Of a stretch of DNA of 64,000 bases, positions 20,535-40,363 are shown one piece after another (positions within the stretch are counted from its first letter, which is position 1; every line of letters begins with the position of its first letter). The notes below the pieces were generated by a model that was not told where the DNA came from, made no database searches, and was given only the letters and a program-made list of their open reading frames with translations. Position numbers and translations under genes: made by a program. This DNA comes from Flavobacterium crocinum (lineage in GTDB: Bacteria; Bacteroidota; Bacteroidia; Flavobacteriales; Flavobacteriaceae): the NCBI RefSeq assembly GCF_003122385.1, contig NZ_CP029255.1, positions 1 to 64,000 on the forward strand, in the 5' to 3' direction.

Positions 20535-20632
20535 TGGCGTTTCCCTCCGGGTCGGGCTGTCCGCTGTATCTTTTGCTTTTTAAAGAAAAAAGCAAAAGGA
20601 TGCCGCTCCCATCCCTAACGCAATCGTACTTT
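20535..20632 (+). repeat. Dispersed hairpin repeat, copy B1
   Basis: The element runs from GGCGTTTCCCTCCGGGTCGG through TGTCCGCTGTATC to ATCCCTAACGC. Its centre is a stem, CTTTTGCTTTTT and AAAAAGCAAAAG. A copy with a longer loop lies at 47651-47816. The core (GCT.TCCGCT, ATCTTTTG, CAAAAGGAT) is shared with the A repeats. It fills most of the spacer between pafA and the rRNA terminator. Confidence 0.82.
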
Positions 20633-20712: not shown

Positions 20713-20720
20713 CTTAAAAG

Positions 20721-20830
20721 AAAGGCGACGACATACTCTCCCACAAAACTGCAGTACCATCTGCGCAGGCGGGCTTAACTTCTCTGTTCGGGATGGGAAG
20801 AGGTGAGCCCCGCCGCAATAACCACCTTAA
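20721..20830 (-). rRNA. rrf: 5S ribosomal RNA
   Basis: The minus strand contains the 5S core CCCATCCCGAACAGAGAAGTTAAGCC-type sequence (given here only by its key parts CCGAAC and GAAGTTAAGCCC) within a span of about 110 bases that begins AAGGTGGTTATTGCG and ends near GGCGACG on the plus strand. It is the last gene of the operon, about 180 bp after 23S. The exact ends are estimated to within a few bases. Confidence 0.95.
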
Positions 20831-21012
20831 GGTTATTGGTTATTGGTTTGTTGTTTATAGTTTCTCGTTTTAAACGCTTGACTCATAACATATAACCTTT
20901 AACCTTCCGCGGTGCGGACAATATTTTAACATACTGAGATAAAGAAACAAATAAGTTTTATTAAGTTTAAGAAAGTTTCCTCCCTCCCTGGTCTGGGACC
21001 AGAGAGGGAAAA

Positions 21013-23897
<2,885 letters not shown>

Positions 23898-24033
23898 TAC
23901 CAATCTTGTTACTTAAAACAAGACCGTTTTTTTTTTGTTTTTGTTACTTATAACAAAAACGCTTTCTACTTTCTTATTATTTTCTTATCTCAATATGTCA
24001 ATGAACTTTTATCTACTCCTTGGAGCAAATCAG

Positions 24034-24107
24034 TGGAGAATAACGGAGTCGAACCGTTGACCTCCTGCGTGCAAGGCAGGCGCTCTAGCCAGCTGAGCTA
24101 ATCCCCC
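24034..24107 (-). tRNA. tRNA-Ala (TGC)
   Basis: This 74-base cloverleaf on the minus strand begins GGGGGATTAGCTCAGCTGG and has the anticodon loop CTTGCAC (anticodon TGC), the T-arm GGTTCGACTCC, and the acceptor end ATTCTCC plus discriminator A. CCA is not encoded. It lies in the 16S-23S spacer downstream of tRNA-Ile, the usual order. Confidence 0.96.
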
Positions 24108-24199
24108 ATTTCTTTAGTGATGAGTTATTAGTTATGAGTTATGAATTATTGCTCATAAGGTCTCAACCCCTAAAATTTCCTTTTAATTAAGTCAAATAG

Positions 24200-24273
24200 T
24201 AGTCCCGGGCAGACTCGAACTGCCGACCCCTACATTATCAGTGTAGTACTCTAACCAGCTGAGCTACGAGACT
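24200..24273 (-). tRNA. tRNA-Ile (GAT)
   Basis: This 74-base cloverleaf on the minus strand begins AGTCTCGTAGCTCAGCTGG and has the anticodon loop CTGATAA (anticodon GAT), the T-arm CAGTTCGAGTCTG and the acceptor end CGGGACT plus A. It is the first tRNA in the 16S-23S spacer. Confidence 0.96.
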
Positions 24274-24399
24274 CTGTTTTACTTAATTGTTTATCATTTT
24301 TTAAATCAACAGCAAGAGTAATACAATCTAAAATTCCAAACCTGTAGAGTGGCATCTTGTTTCCCATTCGTGCCCTGAGGCTAACAAAATGGGCTCTAG

Positions 24400-25912
<1,513 letters not shown>

Positions 25913-26080
25913 TATATTTTAATATTATATAGTCGATGCCTTATTCCAGTCGGTTTGTCTCGAATCTCTCGATTCTATTACTCTTATTCTATTTTGTCTC
26001 GTCTTGTGACGAGACGGCTGTCAATTCAATATGTCTACGAACGTAATTTTGTTTCCTTCGCTTGTTTCTCAAAGCGGGTG
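25913..26080 (-). other. 16S leader region of the rRNA operon
   Basis: About 170 bp separate the nearest rRNA promoter from the 16S 5' end. The stretch is expected to be transcribed as precursor leader. No protein gene is supported here. Confidence 0.6.
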
Positions 26081-26563: not shown

Positions 26564-26636
26564 TTTCCTTTCTGCTTCCTTATTCCTTCCCAAAACACAC
26601 TTCTTTGCTCGGAATTTCTTCTGAAAACCTATCCCA

Positions 26637-26718
26637 TAGCCCCGATAGAAGCGGAAATCCTTTTTGTGGTGGGGTTCACCATAAAAAGATTGCAGCGGAT
26701 AGCGGGAAATTGCTCCTC
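26637..26718 (-). repeat. Dispersed hairpin repeat, copy A2
   Basis: Read on the minus strand this copy runs from AGGAGCAATTTCCCGCTATC through AACCCC to ATCGGGGCTA. It matches copy A1 at 6175-6254 across its length. The central stem is less perfect (CTTTTTATGGTG with CACCACAAAAAG). Confidence 0.83.
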
Positions 26719-31803: not shown

Positions 31804-33528
31804 ATGATACCAAAAAGAATACCATTTTCACTATATATAATTCTAATTTTTATAGTTTTTTTTGCCTGTCAAAACACAAAAAAAAATACGGCGAAAATTA
31901 CAAATGATAAGGTCAAAATAGAAAAGATAATACATTCAGCTGATTTATTCTACAAGAATAAAAAGTTAGATAGCGCATTTTATTTTTACAATAAAGCGAG
32001 AACAAAATGCAATCCTAATGAAGATGTAAAAAGTTACATTTATTGTATGTATTACATGGCCGAAATTCAACAAGCTTATCAAGATTTTATTGGAAGCAAT
32101 AAGACAGCTGCAGAAACAATCCCTTACTTAAATAAAATAAAAGAACCTAATTATGTATGGAACATCTATAGTGTTTTAGGAAGAAATCATTTTTACACAT
32201 ATGATTATCCAACTGCTATGTATTATTATTCTAAAGCATTTACCCTTCAGACTGATAAGATTAACAAACTTGAGGCAAAAAATAATATTGCAGTTATTTA
32301 TCTAAAACAGCAAGAATTTAGCAAAGCGCTTTCTATTTTCCATTCATTAAGCAATGAAAAACTTGTTCAGCAAAATCCCCAAAATTATTCTAAAATACTG
32401 GATTATATAGGCTACTGCTATTTCAAACTTAATTCTCCTAAAGCTTTGTCGTTTTTTGAGAAGAGCATAAAAATAAAGTCACAGCAAAATGACACTAATG
32501 GTTTAGGCAAAACGTACTACAATCTTTGTGAATATTATCAAAATCAAAATGCTGATCTAGCAATGAAGTATGCAAAATTAAGCTATAAAAATTATACTTT
32601 ATCCGGAAACACCGATGATAGCTTACTTGCTTTACAATTCATTATAGAAAATAATAGCTCGCACATTGAATCTAAAAAAAATGCGCTTATTTATATAAAT
32701 ATATCAGACAGCATTTATATGGAAAGGCAAAAAGCTAAAAATCAGCTTGCAAAAATCAAATATGACTCTAAAAATGAAAAAGAGGAAAATTTAAAATTAA
32801 GCGCTCAAAAAATTAAACACGAGCTTCAATTAGCCAAACAAGAAAGCAGAAATATTGCTTTTTACATCATAATTATCGTAGCGTCTTGCCTAATTGTCTT
32901 TCTTTATTTTTTTCTAACAGTAAGAGCAAATCGTCAAAAAATCGAAGCTACTTACAAAAGTGAAACTAGAATTTCAAAGAAATTACATGATGAACTTGCT
33001 AATGATATTTACCATGTACTTGCATTTGCAGAGAACAGAAATCTTTCTTCAGAAGAAAACAGGAATCATTTATTAAAACGATTAGAAGATATTTATTCAC
33101 GAACAACAAATATTTCGAAGGATAATAATCTAGCAACAAGTTTTCAAAATTTTAGCACTTCTTTCAAAGAGATGATTTCTAGTTTTAATACCCCTCAAAT
33201 TAATCTTTTAATAAATGGCTTGGATTGTATTTGTTGGAGCGAAATTGATAAAGACAAAAAAACAGTGGTTTATCGTTCAGTACAGGAATTGCTTGTAAAC
33301 ATGAAAAAACACAGTGATGCAAGCCTTGTCGCAATAACTTTTAAGGAGTTAGACAATTTCATAATCCTAAATTATATTGATAATGGGAAAGGAACTGACA
33401 AAAATAAAATGGTTTTAAAAAATGGTTTACACAATATCGAGAATCGAATTTATTCTATTAAAGGCGGAATTGAAATTTATTCAGATTTAGGAGAAGGTTT
33501 TAAAGTACAAATTAAATTCCCTGTATAA
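31804..33528 (+). CDS. TPR-containing sensor histidine kinase (lipobox N-terminus)
   Basis: This 574-residue kinase begins with a hydrophobic segment ending in a lipobox-like FFAC (Cys22). It continues with a periplasmic region of about 300 residues with TPR-like repeats and a coiled coil, one membrane segment near residues 355-378, and a cytoplasmic HisKA_3-type kinase. The phosphoacceptor is His395 in SKKLHDELAND. The ATPase domain keeps the N-box Asn499 (QELLVNMKKHS), DNGKG and NGLHNIENR. It is thus predicted to be active. The next gene, a paralog lacking these residues, starts on the last base of its stop codon (TAATG), so the two are translationally coupled. Confidence 0.9.
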   Translation: MIPKRIPFSLYIILIFIVFFACQNTKKNTAKITNDKVKIEKIIHSADLFYKNKKLDSAFYFYNKARTKCNPNEDVKSYIYCMYYMAEIQQAYQDFIGSNKTAAETIPYLNKIKEPNYVWNIYSVLGRNHFYTYDYPTAMYYYSKAFTLQTDKINKLEAKNNIAVIYLKQQEFSKALSIFHSLSNEKLVQQNPQNYSKILDYIGYCYFKLNSPKALSFFEKSIKIKSQQNDTNGLGKTYYNLCEYYQNQNADLAMKYAKLSYKNYTLSGNTDDSLLALQFIIENNSSHIESKKNALIYINISDSIYMERQKAKNQLAKIKYDSKNEKEENLKLSAQKIKHELQLAKQESRNIAFYIIIIVASCLIVFLYFFLTVRANRQKIEATYKSETRISKKLHDELANDIYHVLAFAENRNLSSEENRNHLLKRLEDIYSRTTNISKDNNLATSFQNFSTSFKEMISSFNTPQINLLINGLDCICWSEIDKDKKTVVYRSVQELLVNMKKHSDASLVAITFKELDNFIILNYIDNGKGTDKNKMVLKNGLHNIENRIYSIKGGIEIYSDLGEGFKVQIKFPV

Positions 33529-35315
33529 TGTCAAAAAAAATACGCAACCTTTTCCACAAAAAAATCATCTTTTTCTGCCTGTTAACTTGCGGAGTAATTC
33601 TAGCTGTTTATTTTTCTCTGAAATTTTCGGCTCCTAAAAAACTACCCTTAAGTTATAGCAAAAGCGATCCCTTACCAGAAATAAAACAAACACTGAAAAA
33701 GGCACATGCTTTTTGGGACAATGAAAGAAGTGACAGTGCTTATTTTTATTTTAATAAAACTCGATTATTATGTGAACCAAAAGAGAATTATGCCGACTAT
33801 TATGTGGAATCGCTAAACTATATTGCAGAGATCTTACAAAGACATGGCGATTATAATGAAGTTGAAACTACACTCGTAAAAGCTTTTCCATACTTAGACA
33901 AGACAACTAATGTGAAGTATGCTGTTAATGCTTATACATTTATGGCGTATAATTATCATTCTACTTTCGACTATGAAAAAGCACTATATTATCATAAAAA
34001 AGCATTAAAAAAGGCCTTCTCTACATTTAGAAAATCACGTATAATATCTGAAATTGCCTTTATTTACATGGAACAAGGAAGATATCAGGAGGCTATAGAC
34101 CTACTAGAACCGATAGCCTGGCTGAATATCGAGGACAAAATTACTCCTTCAAATACAGCTTTTCAACGTACCGCTAAATTATATAATTTGGGGCTTTCCT
34201 ACCTCTATCTTGGTGGTCATAAGCAAGAAGCTTTTGATTGCTTTAATGAAAGTCTAAAAGTAGCTCTTACTTTAAATGATGACTACGAACTAATTACCTG
34301 TTATTATGCTTTTTATAAATATTACAAAAAATATAATAATCCTGAGCTCAAAAAAATTAATATAGAGAAAGCTTATTATTATGCCAAAAAGTCAAATTCT
34401 AAATCCTACGAAATTAGTATGTTAGGCTATTTAATTGAGGCCGACAATGCTGCAAACTCTAAAAATCATTTCAAAGCTTACAGTAGAATGCTTGATAGTC
34501 TTACTGTTAGTAGAAAAAAAGCAAAAAATCAGTTCGCAGATATTATATATAATTCACAGAAGGATAAGGGCGAAAACTTAGAACTTAAAAATCTTAAGGT
34601 CGAAAACGAGCTAAAACTTCAAAGACAAAAAAACAGAAGTTATATCTCTTATGTAGTAATCTCTTTTAGTTTATTCATATTACTTTTTTTAATATACCAT
34701 ATCACTTCTAAAAGTAAACGGGAAAAAAATGATGCGATTTTTAAAAGCGAAATGAGAATATCAAATCAACTGGATAATGAACTTAACTTAAATATATTTC
34801 AAACTTTATTATTTGTTCAGAATAATGATTTAGAAAACAAAGAAAATAAGGAAATGCTTCTTAATAATTTGAATATTATTTACTCTAAAACCAGGAATAT
34901 ATCAAGAGAAAACAGCAAAATCCCAACAGATGAAAGATACCTGACTGTTTTAAAAGAAATGATTTCAGAATACAAAACTGAAAATGTAAATATCATATTA
35001 AATGGCTTTGATACTATATCCTGGAATTCAATTGACAAAAACAAAAAAATAATACTGTACAGAATTTTACAAGAATTATTATTCAACATGAAAAAATCTG
35101 ATAGCTCAAGTCTGGTAAGTATAATTGTAAAAGAAACAGGCAAAAAAATAGCAATTCAATACACTGACAATAGTAGTGAAATCAATTCAGAAAATAATAT
35201 TTTAGAAAAAAGACTACAAAATGTGGAAAACCGTATTAAAACAATAAAAGGAACTCTTAATTTTGATACAGCGTTAGAAAAAGCGTTTAAAATAAATTTC
35301 TCATTTCCTATATAA
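33528..35315 (+). CDS. TPR-containing pseudo-histidine kinase (paralog of the preceding gene)
   Basis: This 595-residue protein has the same layout as its upstream neighbour: an N-terminal membrane segment (about 12-33), a TPR-rich periplasmic region, a coiled coil (KAKNQFADIIYNSQKDKGENLE), a membrane segment near 373-392 and a kinase-like end. The phosphoacceptor position is Asp416 (SNQLDNELN against SKKLHDELA). The N-box Asn520 is kept, but the ATP-binding glycines are lost: DNGKG became DNSSE and NGLHN became KRLQN. It is therefore predicted to be unable to phosphorylate itself. A role as a regulatory partner of the active kinase is inferred. A response regulator follows after 9 bp. Confidence 0.88.
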   Translation: MSKKIRNLFHKKIIFFCLLTCGVILAVYFSLKFSAPKKLPLSYSKSDPLPEIKQTLKKAHAFWDNERSDSAYFYFNKTRLLCEPKENYADYYVESLNYIAEILQRHGDYNEVETTLVKAFPYLDKTTNVKYAVNAYTFMAYNYHSTFDYEKALYYHKKALKKAFSTFRKSRIISEIAFIYMEQGRYQEAIDLLEPIAWLNIEDKITPSNTAFQRTAKLYNLGLSYLYLGGHKQEAFDCFNESLKVALTLNDDYELITCYYAFYKYYKKYNNPELKKINIEKAYYYAKKSNSKSYEISMLGYLIEADNAANSKNHFKAYSRMLDSLTVSRKKAKNQFADIIYNSQKDKGENLELKNLKVENELKLQRQKNRSYISYVVISFSLFILLFLIYHITSKSKREKNDAIFKSEMRISNQLDNELNLNIFQTLLFVQNNDLENKENKEMLLNNLNIIYSKTRNISRENSKIPTDERYLTVLKEMISEYKTENVNIILNGFDTISWNSIDKNKKIILYRILQELLFNMKKSDSSSLVSIIVKETGKKIAIQYTDNSSEINSENNILEKRLQNVENRIKTIKGTLNFDTALEKAFKINFSFPI

Positions 35316-35324
35316 GATAACATT

Positions 35325-35993
35325 ATGTTTAAGAAAGTTTTAGTTGCCGAAGATTTAGATAGTATCAGTATTGCAGTTGTTCAAGTGCTGGAAGATTTGC
35401 AAGTTCCTGTAATTGATCATGTAAAATACTGTGATGAAGCTTTACTCAAAATAAAAAAAGCTTTACTGGAAAAAGAGCCATATGATTTATTAATTAGCGA
35501 TTTGTCTTTTAAATCAGATCATAGAAAAGCAATATTAAACAGCGGAGATGAGTTAATTGAAGCTGCTAATAAAGTTCAGCCTACATTAAAGAAAATCGTG
35601 TTTTCTATTGAAGATAAAAGCTACAGAATCAAATCTCTTTTTAACGATCTGGGAATAAGCGCCTATGTTTCTAAAGGAAGAAACAGTATCGCTGAACTAA
35701 AAAATGCTATTGTAAGCACCTACAACAACGAAGAAAAAATTGTTTCTTCTGATTTATCATTTAGTTTTAATGATAAAGCTTTGATTGAAATTGAGTCTTA
35801 TGATATCTCAATACTAAAACTTCTTTCACAAGGATATATTCTAGAAAGTATCTCAAAAGAATTTAAAGATTTGGCAATTACTCCAAATGGAACCAGCAGT
35901 ATTGAAAAAAGAATTAACAAATTGAAAATCTACTTTAAAGCAAATAATAATGTACATCTTATAGCGATTGCTAAAGATTTTGGATTAGTTTAA
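35325..35993 (+). CDS. Response regulator with divergent C-terminal HTH
   Basis: The 222-residue protein has a receiver domain with an intact acidic pocket (AEDLD, Glu9/Asp10), phosphoacceptor Asp59 in LLISDLSF, a Ser in IVFSIED and the conserved Lys in YVSKGR. The C-terminal region (about 155-222) resembles a LuxR/NarL helix-turn-helix (LKLLSQGYILESISKEF, then SIEKRINKLKIYF) but is divergent. It is the third gene of the kinase/pseudokinase cassette, 9 bp after the pseudokinase, and is the likely phosphoryl acceptor. Its targets are unknown. Confidence 0.88.
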   Translation: MFKKVLVAEDLDSISIAVVQVLEDLQVPVIDHVKYCDEALLKIKKALLEKEPYDLLISDLSFKSDHRKAILNSGDELIEAANKVQPTLKKIVFSIEDKSYRIKSLFNDLGISAYVSKGRNSIAELKNAIVSTYNNEEKIVSSDLSFSFNDKALIEIESYDISILKLLSQGYILESISKEFKDLAITPNGTSSIEKRINKLKIYFKANNNVHLIAIAKDFGLV

Positions 35994-36044
35994 AATATGT
36001 AAACTTTTTACAAAATCACGTAAGAATTGAAGCTTTAGTAATTT

Positions 36045-36052
36045 TAAATTTG
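36045..36052 (+). promoter_or_regulatory. Putative -7 element before the small membrane protein gene
   Basis: TAAATTTG matches TAnnTTTG, 18 bp before the ATG at 36071. A TTG at 36027-36029 gives a spacer of 15 bp, shorter than usual. Confidence 0.4.
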
Positions 36053-36070: not shown

Positions 36071-36304
36071 ATGAAACCAAAAAACAAAACGATTACTTTT
36101 TTTGAAAAAATTAATACAACTCAAAATAAAATCATCATGAAAACCATGTTTCTTTGTCTATTTTTATCGATAAGCTTTGCTTATGTATCTGAAAAAACCG
36201 GCTGGCTGGAAATCGACTGGAAAATAATTTTTATTCCTGCACTGCTTGTTTTACAAATTATAATTATTGGAACCGCTTTGAAAAACAGATATAAAAAACA
36301 TTAA
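36071..36304 (+). CDS. Small two-helix membrane protein, unknown function
   Basis: This 77-residue protein has two predicted membrane segments (about residues 23-39, MKTMFLCLFLSISFAYV, and 51-68, IIFIPALLVLQIIIIGTAL) and a basic C-terminal tail. I do not recognise a family. An ATG at 36137 inside the first helix is a possible alternative start. It lies 77 bp behind the response regulator gene and 69 bp before a secreted nuclease gene, in the same direction. Confidence 0.6.
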   Translation: MKPKNKTITFFEKINTTQNKIIMKTMFLCLFLSISFAYVSEKTGWLEIDWKIIFIPALLVLQIIIIGTALKNRYKKH

Positions 36305-38790: not shown

Positions 38791-39456
38791 TTAGATTGTT
38801 AAAACGGCTAAATCATTTTGGATAGCATACACAACTAAACCAGCAATATTTCGCGATTCTGTTTTAAGCAGTAGATTATTCCTGTGCCCTTCAATAGTCC
38901 TCGGGCTTAAGAAAAGATGTTCCGCAATTTCTGCAGTTGTCTTTTGCTGGCAGATTAATTGAAGTATTTCGACCTCACGAGGTGAAAGAAAATTAGTCTC
39001 CAGCCCACCTTTCGTATTTTTGGGAGAAACAATGGTTTCCTGAATTGTTTTTAAAACACTTTCATTATAGTAGAAACCTTTAGAAGCAACCTCATTGATA
39101 GTAAGAATTAAATCTTTAGGAGTAGTATTTTTGATCAAATAAGCCACAGCTCCAACCTGAATCATATTAGCTATAAATGATTTAGTATCATAACTTGTCA
39201 GGGCAATTATCTTAATATCAGGATATGATTTTCGAATAATTTTTGTGGCTTCGACACCATTTAAAACCGGCATCTTTAAATCCATCACAATGATGTCTGG
39301 TTTAATTTCGTTTTTATCTAACTGAGAAATAAGTTCATCTCCGTTTGAGGCTTCAAAAATAATTTCGATATTTTCTTCCCTCTGCAATAAAAAAGAAATT
39401 CCTTTCCGAAACAAAATTTCATCATCGACTAAGGCAATTTTTATAGCAGCATTCAT
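38791..39456 (-). CDS. NarL/LuxR-family response regulator
   Basis: This 221-residue regulator has a receiver domain with Asp11/Asp12 (LVDDE), phosphoacceptor Asp59 in VMDLKMP, and the conserved Thr and Lys in ALTSYD and YLIKNT. It also has a C-terminal LuxR-type helix-turn-helix (LSPREVEILQLICQQKTTAEIA, given here by its ends, and LFLSPRTIEGHRNNL). I use the ATG at 39456; a further upstream start would add 21 unrelated residues. The cognate kinase gene lies 115 bp upstream in the same direction. It probably works as a DNA-binding dimer after phosphorylation. Confidence 0.93.
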   Translation of the reverse strand: MNAAIKIALVDDEILFRKGISFLLQREENIEIIFEASNGDELISQLDKNEIKPDIIVMDLKMPVLNGVEATKIIRKSYPDIKIIALTSYDTKSFIANMIQVGAVAYLIKNTTPKDLILTINEVASKGFYYNESVLKTIQETIVSPKNTKGGLETNFLSPREVEILQLICQQKTTAEIAEHLFLSPRTIEGHRNNLLLKTESRNIAGLVVYAIQNDLAVLTI

Positions 39457-39571
39457 CTTATTTGATTTTGGTCGTTTAATTTGGTCTGCCGAATTTACGA
39501 AATATGATTCATAAAACACTAAGTTCCCTTATTTTATTGACTAAAAACCTTGTTAAGATGAATAAATTATC

Positions 39572-40363
39572 TTAAAAAGTAAAATTCACAATGATTCCGT
39601 TATTAATTTCTGAGGTAATTTTTACTGTTCCTTCTAAAAATGATATACGGCTGTCAATATTTTTCATTCCCAAACCTTTTTGATTTTTATCACTTTTACT
39701 GTCAAAACCAATTCCGTTGTCTTCATAGTCACAAATATTAATACCTTCTTTACAAGTAAAAGCAATCCAAATTTCTGTGGCTTTTCCGTGACGAAGTGAA
39801 TTATTCATTAGCTCCTGCAAAATTCTAAAAACATGCAAATGCCGATCGATATCATTATCATCAAAATCAATCTCGTTTTTGTAGTGAGTTTTTACAGATT
39901 TACTACTTTCAAATTCTTCGCATAATTCTTCAATTGCAGCGTTTAGTCCAAATTTTTCAAAAACCGGTGGTAATAAATTATGAGCAATTTTTCTGGAATT
40001 GTCTAATGCCTTAGTAGTTAAAGCAATTATATTTTCTGTAATTTCTGTAGTTTCAGCTTCCGTAAGATTTGGAGCTGTAAGCAGATGACTGTTTAATGAA
40101 ACAATATTTAATTTTGAACTAATATCATCATGAAGATCCTGCGCAATTCTTTTACGTTCTTCTTCCTGAGTAATAATAATAGCATGTAATTGCTCTTTTT
40201 GATACTGAAGCACCAAATCTTTTTTCTCCAATTCTTTCTGAATAATTTTTTTTCTTGAATAGTAAAAGAATATAATTAATGCGACAGCAACAATTATAAA
40301 AAATAAAGAGATATACAATATAATAGCAACTAACTCTTTATCAGGAACGGAATAGGTATTCAT
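39572..40363 (-). CDS. HisKA_3-type sensor histidine kinase
   Basis: This 263-residue kinase has one N-terminal membrane helix (about 11-35), a short coiled coil and the NarX/DesK-type dimerisation motif EEERKRIAQDLHDDISSKLN with phosphoacceptor His78. The ATPase domain has the N-box LQELMNNSLRHGKA, DNGIGFD and GLGMKNIDSRI. No periplasmic sensor domain is present, so the input probably comes from a partner, plausibly the seven-helix protein encoded 30 bp upstream. The response regulator gene follows in the same direction. Confidence 0.93.
   Translation of the reverse strand: MNTYSVPDKELVAIILYISLFFIIVAVALIIFFYYSRKKIIQKELEKKDLVLQYQKEQLHAIIITQEEERKRIAQDLHDDISSKLNIVSLNSHLLTAPNLTEAETTEITENIIALTTKALDNSRKIAHNLLPPVFEKFGLNAAIEELCEEFESSKSVKTHYKNEIDFDDNDIDRHLHVFRILQELMNNSLRHGKATEIWIAFTCKEGINICDYEDNGIGFDSKSDKNQKGLGMKNIDSRISFLEGTVKITSEINNGIIVNFTF

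Follow-up and report, generated by a model that had tools for sequence, protein, structure and literature searches.

In Streptococcus pyogenes, the FasBCA system includes FasC, a proposed pseudokinase partner of FasB, and two-hybrid analysis gave evidence for a FasB-FasC heterodimer (PMC12675982). DivL of Caulobacter, which is without an ATPase domain or phosphorylation residue of its own, is needed for full activity of CckA, and in an evolved Corynebacterium glutamicum a dead paralogue, the ChrS pseudokinase, improves signalling by HrrS to the response regulator (RR) ChrA. The same source reports native ChrS-HrrS heterodimers by two-hybrid analysis, with no interaction seen for truncated ChrS (PMC9491836). 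The locus described here lies within the first 64,000 nt of the Flavobacterium crocinum contig NZ_CP029255.1 (assembly GCF_003122385.1, positions 1 to 64,000, forward strand; hereafter the window), where nt 31804-35993 encode two tandem kinase-like proteins, HK1 and HK2, and one RR. The best explanation of the whole, which is considered reasonably probable, is a three-protein unit in which HK2 would be a non-catalytic partner of HK1 and the phosphorylated RR would activate promoters carrying a dyad operator.

The tandem kinases and their response regulator

The unit is made up of three genes:

31804..33528, + strand: HK1, TPR sensor histidine kinase, 574 aa, catalytic residues intact (open reading frame (ORF), residues, Pfam)
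33528..35315, + strand: HK2, TPR histidine-kinase-like putative pseudokinase, 595 aa (ORF, paralogy, residues, ratio of nonsynonymous to synonymous substitution rates (dN/dS), structure model)
35325..35993, + strand: RR, NarL/RcsB-like response regulator, 222 aa, intact receiver, divergent helix-turn-helix (HTH) end (DUF5932)

A first-pass annotation, made from the sequence alone, had described two overlapping paralogous TPR kinase genes with an RR after 9 bp, and ORFs and alignment bear this out. The kinase genes overlap at TAATG, the gap between HK2 and RR is 9 bp, and the two proteins are whole-length paralogues (34% identity over 554 aligned columns, E 8e-92) that share the order N-terminal membrane or lipid anchor, TPR superhelix, transmembrane (TM) helix, DHp hairpin and CA domain. 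The residues that it had singled out were also found as stated. HK1 has the catalytic set H395 (codon 32986-32988), N499, D526-N-G-K-G and G541. HK2 carries D416 (codon 34773-34775) in the His column, and its G boxes read DNSSE and KRLQN, so that the G1 and G2 glycines are gone, with N520 kept in the N box. Judged by these residues, HK1 is the only one of the two with a catalytic set.

A Pfam scan identified TPR and HATPase_c domains in both proteins, HATPase_c being below the Pfam cut-off in each, while HisKA_3 gave no match to either at E up to 1. Their assignment as HisKA_3/DesK-type kinases rests on the fold and on an LHDEL motif, which is taken here to be characteristic of that type. The AlphaFold model of HK2 (73 sequences, mean pLDDT 81) has the order TM-TPR-TM-DHp-CA and a CA fold that is kept, with a poorly defined ATP-lid stretch at 553-555. 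Foldseek placed its TPR part near LGN and its DHp-CA part near DesK (3ehj, E 5e-6); as modelled, HK2 retains the DHp-CA fold.

The receiver of the RR is intact, as had been annotated: E9, D10, D59, S94 and K117 are kept in 42/42 aligned close homologues, and D10, D59, S94 and K117 are invariant in a more diverse alignment of 30 rows. What had been called an odd HTH is, by sequence comparison, probably a divergent NarL/LuxR-type end. It has no GerE match in Pfam and instead matches DUF5932, with a score below the cut-off in the window protein; DUF5932 is also matched in 21 of 30 relatives, and the RR profile matches the full-length structures of RcsB, VraR and NarL. A profile comparison with the neighbouring canonical RR was uninformative, and a PDB search with a low-diversity RR alignment returned no match.

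Residue loss and selection in the later kinase copies

HK2 matches at E <= 1e-40 occur in 228 of 398 sampled Flavobacterium genomes, a count for which up to three candidates were scored per genome and in which HK1 and single kinases can also register as matches. One hundred stretches around matches, chosen chiefly for their score, which enriches for tandem arrays, were compared (79 from the genus search, one from the F. crocinum genome and 20 RR loci from a family search). With the window included, 100 loci bear kinases, either one (37), two in tandem (46) or three (17); none was detected in L149. The 19 loci fetched from other genera are single-kinase units apart from L149 and from L157, which has two adjacent kinases, both intact.

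A tree of these proteins places 59 first copies, along with three single kinases, in one clade and 77 later copies in another, so that one duplication inside Flavobacterium explains nearly all copies. L100, L127 and L157 carry intact copies from separate duplications (L100 and L127 may share one) and, together with a fragment in L077, were left out of the later-copy counts. The phosphoacceptor His (H) and the ATP-box residues (N, D or G of G1, or G of G2) were scored. H, N, D, G1 and G2 are all kept in 42/42 single kinases and in 62 of 63 first copies; the odd one is the L077 fragment, 208 aa long and located at a contig edge, which is probably the terminal part of a later copy, and all 62 full-length first copies are intact. 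Across all loci, H is lost in 27/63 last copies and an ATP-box residue in 28/63, and the corresponding figures for middle copies are 11/17 and 6/17. Within the later-copy clade (n = 77), H is lost in 38 and an ATP-box residue in 34; 24 lost H only, 20 lost ATP-box residues only, 14 lost both (including the decayed copy G506, in which the G2 box is missing) and 19 lost neither. A second set, of 73 homologues from a protein search, gave the same picture, with 20 intact at the four tested residues.

With the motif columns and the tail that overlaps the promoter excluded from the tree, the H state changes 21 times, at least 17 of them forced by supported branches, and the ATP-box state 11 times, at least 10 of them on supported branches; these are parsimony counts of state changes, in which a loss and a regain look alike. 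On the sequences, residue loss in the pseudokinase is recurrent and bound to gene position, and this is one of the new parts of the picture. The combination of an H-to-D change with G-box loss, put forward earlier as a possibly conserved pair, is not one: both were lost many times, no association between them was detected on the tree (with few informative pairs), and 19/77 copies keep all tested residues. A conserved H-to-D switch was rejected as well, as the column holds H, Q, S, D, R, E, K or N.

HK2 would have arisen by tandem duplication within Flavobacterium, keeping its sensor, dimerisation and CA folds and losing catalysis. The copies that lost only H or only ATP-box residues could alternatively be catalytic in trans, those without H phosphorylating the His of HK1, those without ATP-box residues receiving phosphate from the HK1 CA domain, or those keeping DxxxN serving as phosphatases; a split of such roles is proposed for FasB and FasC (PMC12675982). 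This is unlikely, given that the window copy and 13 others (one being the decayed G506) lost both, that H and ATP-box losses do not alternate on the tree, where informative pairs are few, and that HK1 is intact in all loci seen, which makes complementation unneeded. In addition, the residues used for phosphatase activity, D+1 and N+5 after the His, are kept in only 6/38 H-lost copies.

A lipobox-like N-terminal motif was matched by a crude pattern in 37/62 first copies versus 12/63 last copies (L064-L163 and the window); HK1 may be lipid-anchored and HK2 anchored by a TM helix.

Selection was estimated as dN/dS with a simple Nei-Gojobori count on pairs at >= 70% identity, for which dS is often near 1 and ancestry is shared between pairs. 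Median values for last copies (58 pairs) are 0.13 for TPR, 0.086 for DHp and 0.094 for the CA domain before the promoter, and those for first copies (156 pairs) are 0.139, 0.095 and 0.109 for TPR, DHp and CA. Where both members of a last-copy pair have lost an ATP-box residue (23 pairs), the medians are 0.152 for TPR, 0.11 for DHp and 0.083 for CA outside the promoter (23, 15 and 18 usable pairs). Pairs with both members intact (12 pairs) show still lower values (TPR 0.084, DHp 0.045, CA 0.075), so constraint on HK2 may be somewhat relaxed after residue loss.

With TPR, DHp and CA all under purifying selection (dN/dS about 0.1), HK2 is, on this evidence, a retained pseudokinase and not a random pseudogene. 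The annotation had considered random decay of the second gene, and this fits a few cases, namely the stops in G506 and three loci where only a remnant is left, while most copies are under purifying selection. Were HK2 in general a decaying duplicate, idle as a protein and tolerated because its 3' end holds the RR promoter (see below), the repeated loss of catalytic residues, the G506 stops and the remnants holding only the dyad and -7 box would all follow. That is very unlikely in view of dN/dS, which is low in every domain, even for CA in copies whose ATP-box residues are gone, and of the 76/77 later copies that are open over their full length (the L077 fragment left out); the remnant loci themselves indicate that the protein can go while the promoter stays. 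Since only a remnant of HK2 is left in three loci and one copy has decayed, the protein is judged to be useful in most lineages seen and dispensable in a few. In L072 (9540-9804), a third kinase copy is reduced to its 3' end with the RR promoter.

Retention of the fold in the model, including DHp, would also suit an HK2 that is separate from HK1, a homodimeric decoy or sequestering receptor for the RR or for a ligand. The probability of this is low too; whole-length paralogy and the low dN/dS of DHp fit a dimer surface shared with HK1, which is a matter of consistency and no test. The simplest account is that HK2 is a regulatory partner, because HK1 is intact and comes first and HK2 varies in catalysis and not in fold, as may be compared with FasC/FasB and ChrS/HrrS. 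HK2 would most likely pair with HK1, in a heterodimer or a mixed oligomer, and tune the kinase/phosphatase balance of HK1 through its own TPR input.

A predicted promoter within HK2 and its sites elsewhere

The RR appears from the sequence to have its own promoter inside HK2. The relevant features are:

35222..35235, + strand: operator dyad TGTGGAAAACCGTA inside the HK2 coding sequence, centred at -41.5 of the predicted RR start site
35258..35265, + strand: -7 box TAATTTTG (TAnnTTTG) within HK2, part of the predicted RR promoter, with transcription predicted to start at about 35270
36009..36052, + strand: degenerate copy of the element (TACAAAATCACGTA, 22 bp, TAAATTTG) just 3' of RR, where many relatives have an exact site
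36071..36304, + strand: 77-aa membrane protein; in many loci of Flavobacterium its gene follows the second element

The general form of the element, at the 3' end of the RR-proximal kinase gene, is TTACGGnnnnCCGTAA, 22 bp and TAnnTTTG; the window DNA reads TGTGGAAAACCGTA, a 22 bp spacer and then TAATTTTG. It precedes 98 of 101 RR genes at spacer 22, with no match before these 101 genes at the other spacers tested (16-21 and 23-28), and the three without it are in L160, L161 and one of two in L158. It is also present at loci with a single kinase or with a kinase of another genus, and dyad and -7 box persist in the noncoding remnants of L101, L126 and L132. Six DHp-CA positions are nearly fixed in last copies, unlike first copies, and four of them (564, 572, 579, 591) are among the 32 C-terminal residues of HK2, whereas two (463, 489) are not. 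Even the codons are fixed in those last copies that have the residue (V566 GTG and E567 GAA, 100%; N568 AAC and R569 CGT, 98%), and the same codons vary in first and middle copies. Median dS over the promoter overlap is 0.23 for last, 0.94 for first and 0.665 for middle copies (the last figure from four pairs only). Because synonymous constraint is found in last but not in first or middle copies and the stretch persists in noncoding remnants, QNVENRIKTI of the last copies is best read as a DNA element, and its interpretation solely as a protein interaction motif was rejected. The overprinted promoter accounts for a conserved dead-kinase tail that could otherwise be read as protein function. 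It also bears on the fixed stoichiometry proposed earlier from the TAATG overlap: if the RR has a promoter of its own, the overlap need not fix the kinase-to-RR ratio.

The usual position of a class II activator is -41.5. With the flavobacterial -7 box TAnnTTTG at -12 to -5, where PMC9723704 places it, the dyad centre falls at -41.5, and the two together have the arrangement of a sigma-A promoter with a class II site, the start being predicted. Constant spacing before RR genes could be inherited with the reading frame, and independent support comes from sites at other genes. Five spacers were allowed by the pattern, yet of 190 distinct sites in the fetched DNA, which include 55 recognised RR promoters, 185 share one length, and 99% of these 185 have a T, which the pattern did not force, three bases left of GG. 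A pattern with CGGAAAACCGTA gave 0 matches and was dropped, the window site having TGG, and single-mismatch dyads occur genome-wide at chance level (26 and 34 vs 26 and 26 in controls).

When counted against the reversed pattern as control, the F. crocinum genome has 7 matches vs 0. Each of 16 chosen Flavobacterium genomes has at least one match; 12 with tandem kinases have 6-16 each (controls 0-1), and the other four have 1, 5, 8 and 9 (controls 0, 0, 0 and 2). Outside the genus, 24 genomes with a strong RR orthologue gave 67 matches (control 15), and 32 with no or weak RR match gave 16 (control 22). Since this co-occurrence rests mostly on the RR locus itself, a test within the genus was added, using 32 chosen genomes and a strong RR match defined as E below 1e-50. 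The 15 genomes with such a match hold 82 sites (control 6), of which about 50 by hand count are >4 kb from the RR, and the 17 with no or weak match hold 9 (control 6). Genomes without the RR are smaller on average. Inside Flavobacterium, then, scattered sites track the RR, and in other genera the element is found chiefly at the RR locus.

It is inferred from this pattern that the RR binds the dyad. As this is a prediction, and as most of the site excess in other genera is at the RR locus, a different regulator could bind there and merely control the RR gene. Such an arrangement is quite improbable: sites elsewhere in the genus are enriched only in RR-holding genomes, the RR is of NarL/RcsB type, and a second site lies directly 3' of RR in many loci. 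With the RR as the binding protein, its phosphorylated form would bind TTACGGnnnnCCGTAA centred at -41.5 and activate TAnnTTTG promoters. These would be the promoter of the RR itself, overprinted on the end of the last kinase gene, the one before the small membrane protein downstream, and those of a dispersed regulon comprising envelope-protein genes and, among relatives, genes that are anti-phage candidates.

The likely targets, going by the genes behind sites, include the RR itself and, as the commonest other gene, a membrane protein of 76-84 aa encoded just 3' of RR. This small-membrane-protein cluster is reached from sites in 75 loci, sometimes via an intervening gene, and in many it lies directly behind the second site. 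Other F. crocinum sites precede a paralogous RR, a lipoprotein-like gene after it, a gene encoding a nucleotide-sugar dehydrogenase (by its sequence, with no family search), an NlpE-like secreted protein and an ORF-free stretch; one is inside a coding region and may be chance. The paralogous unit (L123, G000:C1:5622924-5633059) consists of an intact TPR kinase with an RR (50% identical) and, about 6 kb further, another intact kinase; dyads precede the two kinase genes and also occur within the first one. An operator-promoter without a downstream ORF is found at G000:C1:4932455-4932495 (L227), and others with similar spacer letters at G619:C1:4954740 and G379:C31:377173; such sites could possibly drive a small RNA of the regulon.

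In relatives, 40 further sites from seven of the 16 chosen genomes were fetched before their genes were seen, omitting sites beside the main RR and those resembling earlier sites. Eleven have no ATG ORF of 40 aa within 300 bp, one has only a 44-aa ORF, two targets are duplicates and 26 were scanned with PADLOC. Six of the 26 match at E below 1e-40: LmuA (L269 and L272), PDC-S54 (L270), PDC-M71A (L278), PDC-S71 (L286) and PDC-S66/ThsB (L300). A control of 40 chosen window-ORF proteins gave 0 at that threshold (best 1.5e-18), a lenient control as they come from a core region. Behind additional fetched sites lie genes for caspase, PLD-like, AAA_15 and HsdR_N proteins, and 43 proteins hand-picked from 108 clusters were kept out of the enrichment test. 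These results are read as accessory defence genes having joined the regulator in some strains, the RR not being a general defence controller. It is possible, but doubtful, that an RR autoactivated from an overprinted operator-promoter, selected dead partner kinases, and the anti-phage systems of some strains (Lamassu, TIR/Thoeris-like and PDC candidates) alongside envelope proteins together make up an envelope-sensing immunity controller.

The sequence data show residue losses, purifying selection and a conserved element that has the same spacing at unrelated genes and, within the genus, co-occurs with the RR; all of these favour the proposed unit. Several points weigh against it. Interaction, phosphorylation and binding within the HK1/HK2/RR unit are predictions, as are heterodimerisation, the direction of the HK2 effect, activation and a defence role. 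By the tested residues 19/77 later copies are catalytically intact, one middle copy (G506) has internal stops, and HK2 is reduced to a remnant in L101, L126 and L132. The C-terminal end of the RR is poorly modelled by AlphaFold (pLDDT 33-54), and in other genera 38 of the 67 matches are within 4 kb of the RR (in 23/24 genomes), with 29 elsewhere. On the defence side, tests that began from the families were weak, with sites at 2/12 Cap4-type loci by the strict pattern (one being the known L272) and a third by a looser pattern, and at 1/30 TIR loci; no defence gene was recognised among the targets in F. crocinum.

The surroundings of the unit include a complete rRNA operon (5S, 23S, tRNA-Ala, tRNA-Ile and 16S; window 20720-25913, minus strand) about 6 kb upstream, which is probably why many homologous loci lie near contig ends. 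Two Flavo-1 RNA motifs (RF01705; window 26634-26713 and 20546-20624) flank the operon, and a second, canonical two-component pair, a HisKA_3 kinase and a GerE-type RR, is nearby (window 38791-40363, minus strand).

Comparison with described kinase-pseudokinase units

A literature search that took in little subscription material and no bioRxiv recognised no paper on the locus, the dyad or the regulon. With a predicted regulon, a formerly anonymous sensor becomes a candidate regulator of envelope and defence genes that can be put to the test. The gene order is shared by dozens of kinase-pseudokinase pairs that range from intact to doubly dead, a natural series of a kind seldom available for studying the function of histidine pseudokinases.

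DivL is not a tandem paralogue of CckA and has another architecture; it resembles HK2 as a kinase-like protein that supports another kinase. The ChrS pseudokinase came from a laboratory frameshift (PMC9491836), unlike the natural HK2. In its kinases and regulator the window unit is akin to DesK/DesR and to the RcsB/NarL families, the DHp-CA model of HK2 matching DesK structures and the RR profile matching RcsB, NarL and VraR, but it differs from them in the divergent HTH (DUF5932), the periplasmic TPR input and the pseudokinase partner. FasBCA, the nearest of the described systems, is like the window unit in having two adjacent kinase-like genes and one RR, with one proposed pseudokinase. Its sensors have six TM segments, whereas the window kinases have TPR regions, and FasC needs His246 while its kinase domain is dispensable, whereas HK2 has lost both, in a different phylum (PMC12675982). 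The likeness proposed is one of how the two would work. Units of kinase, pseudokinase and RR are thus known in kind, and what is new here is the recurrent, position-bound loss of catalytic residues, the overprinted promoter and the predicted regulon.

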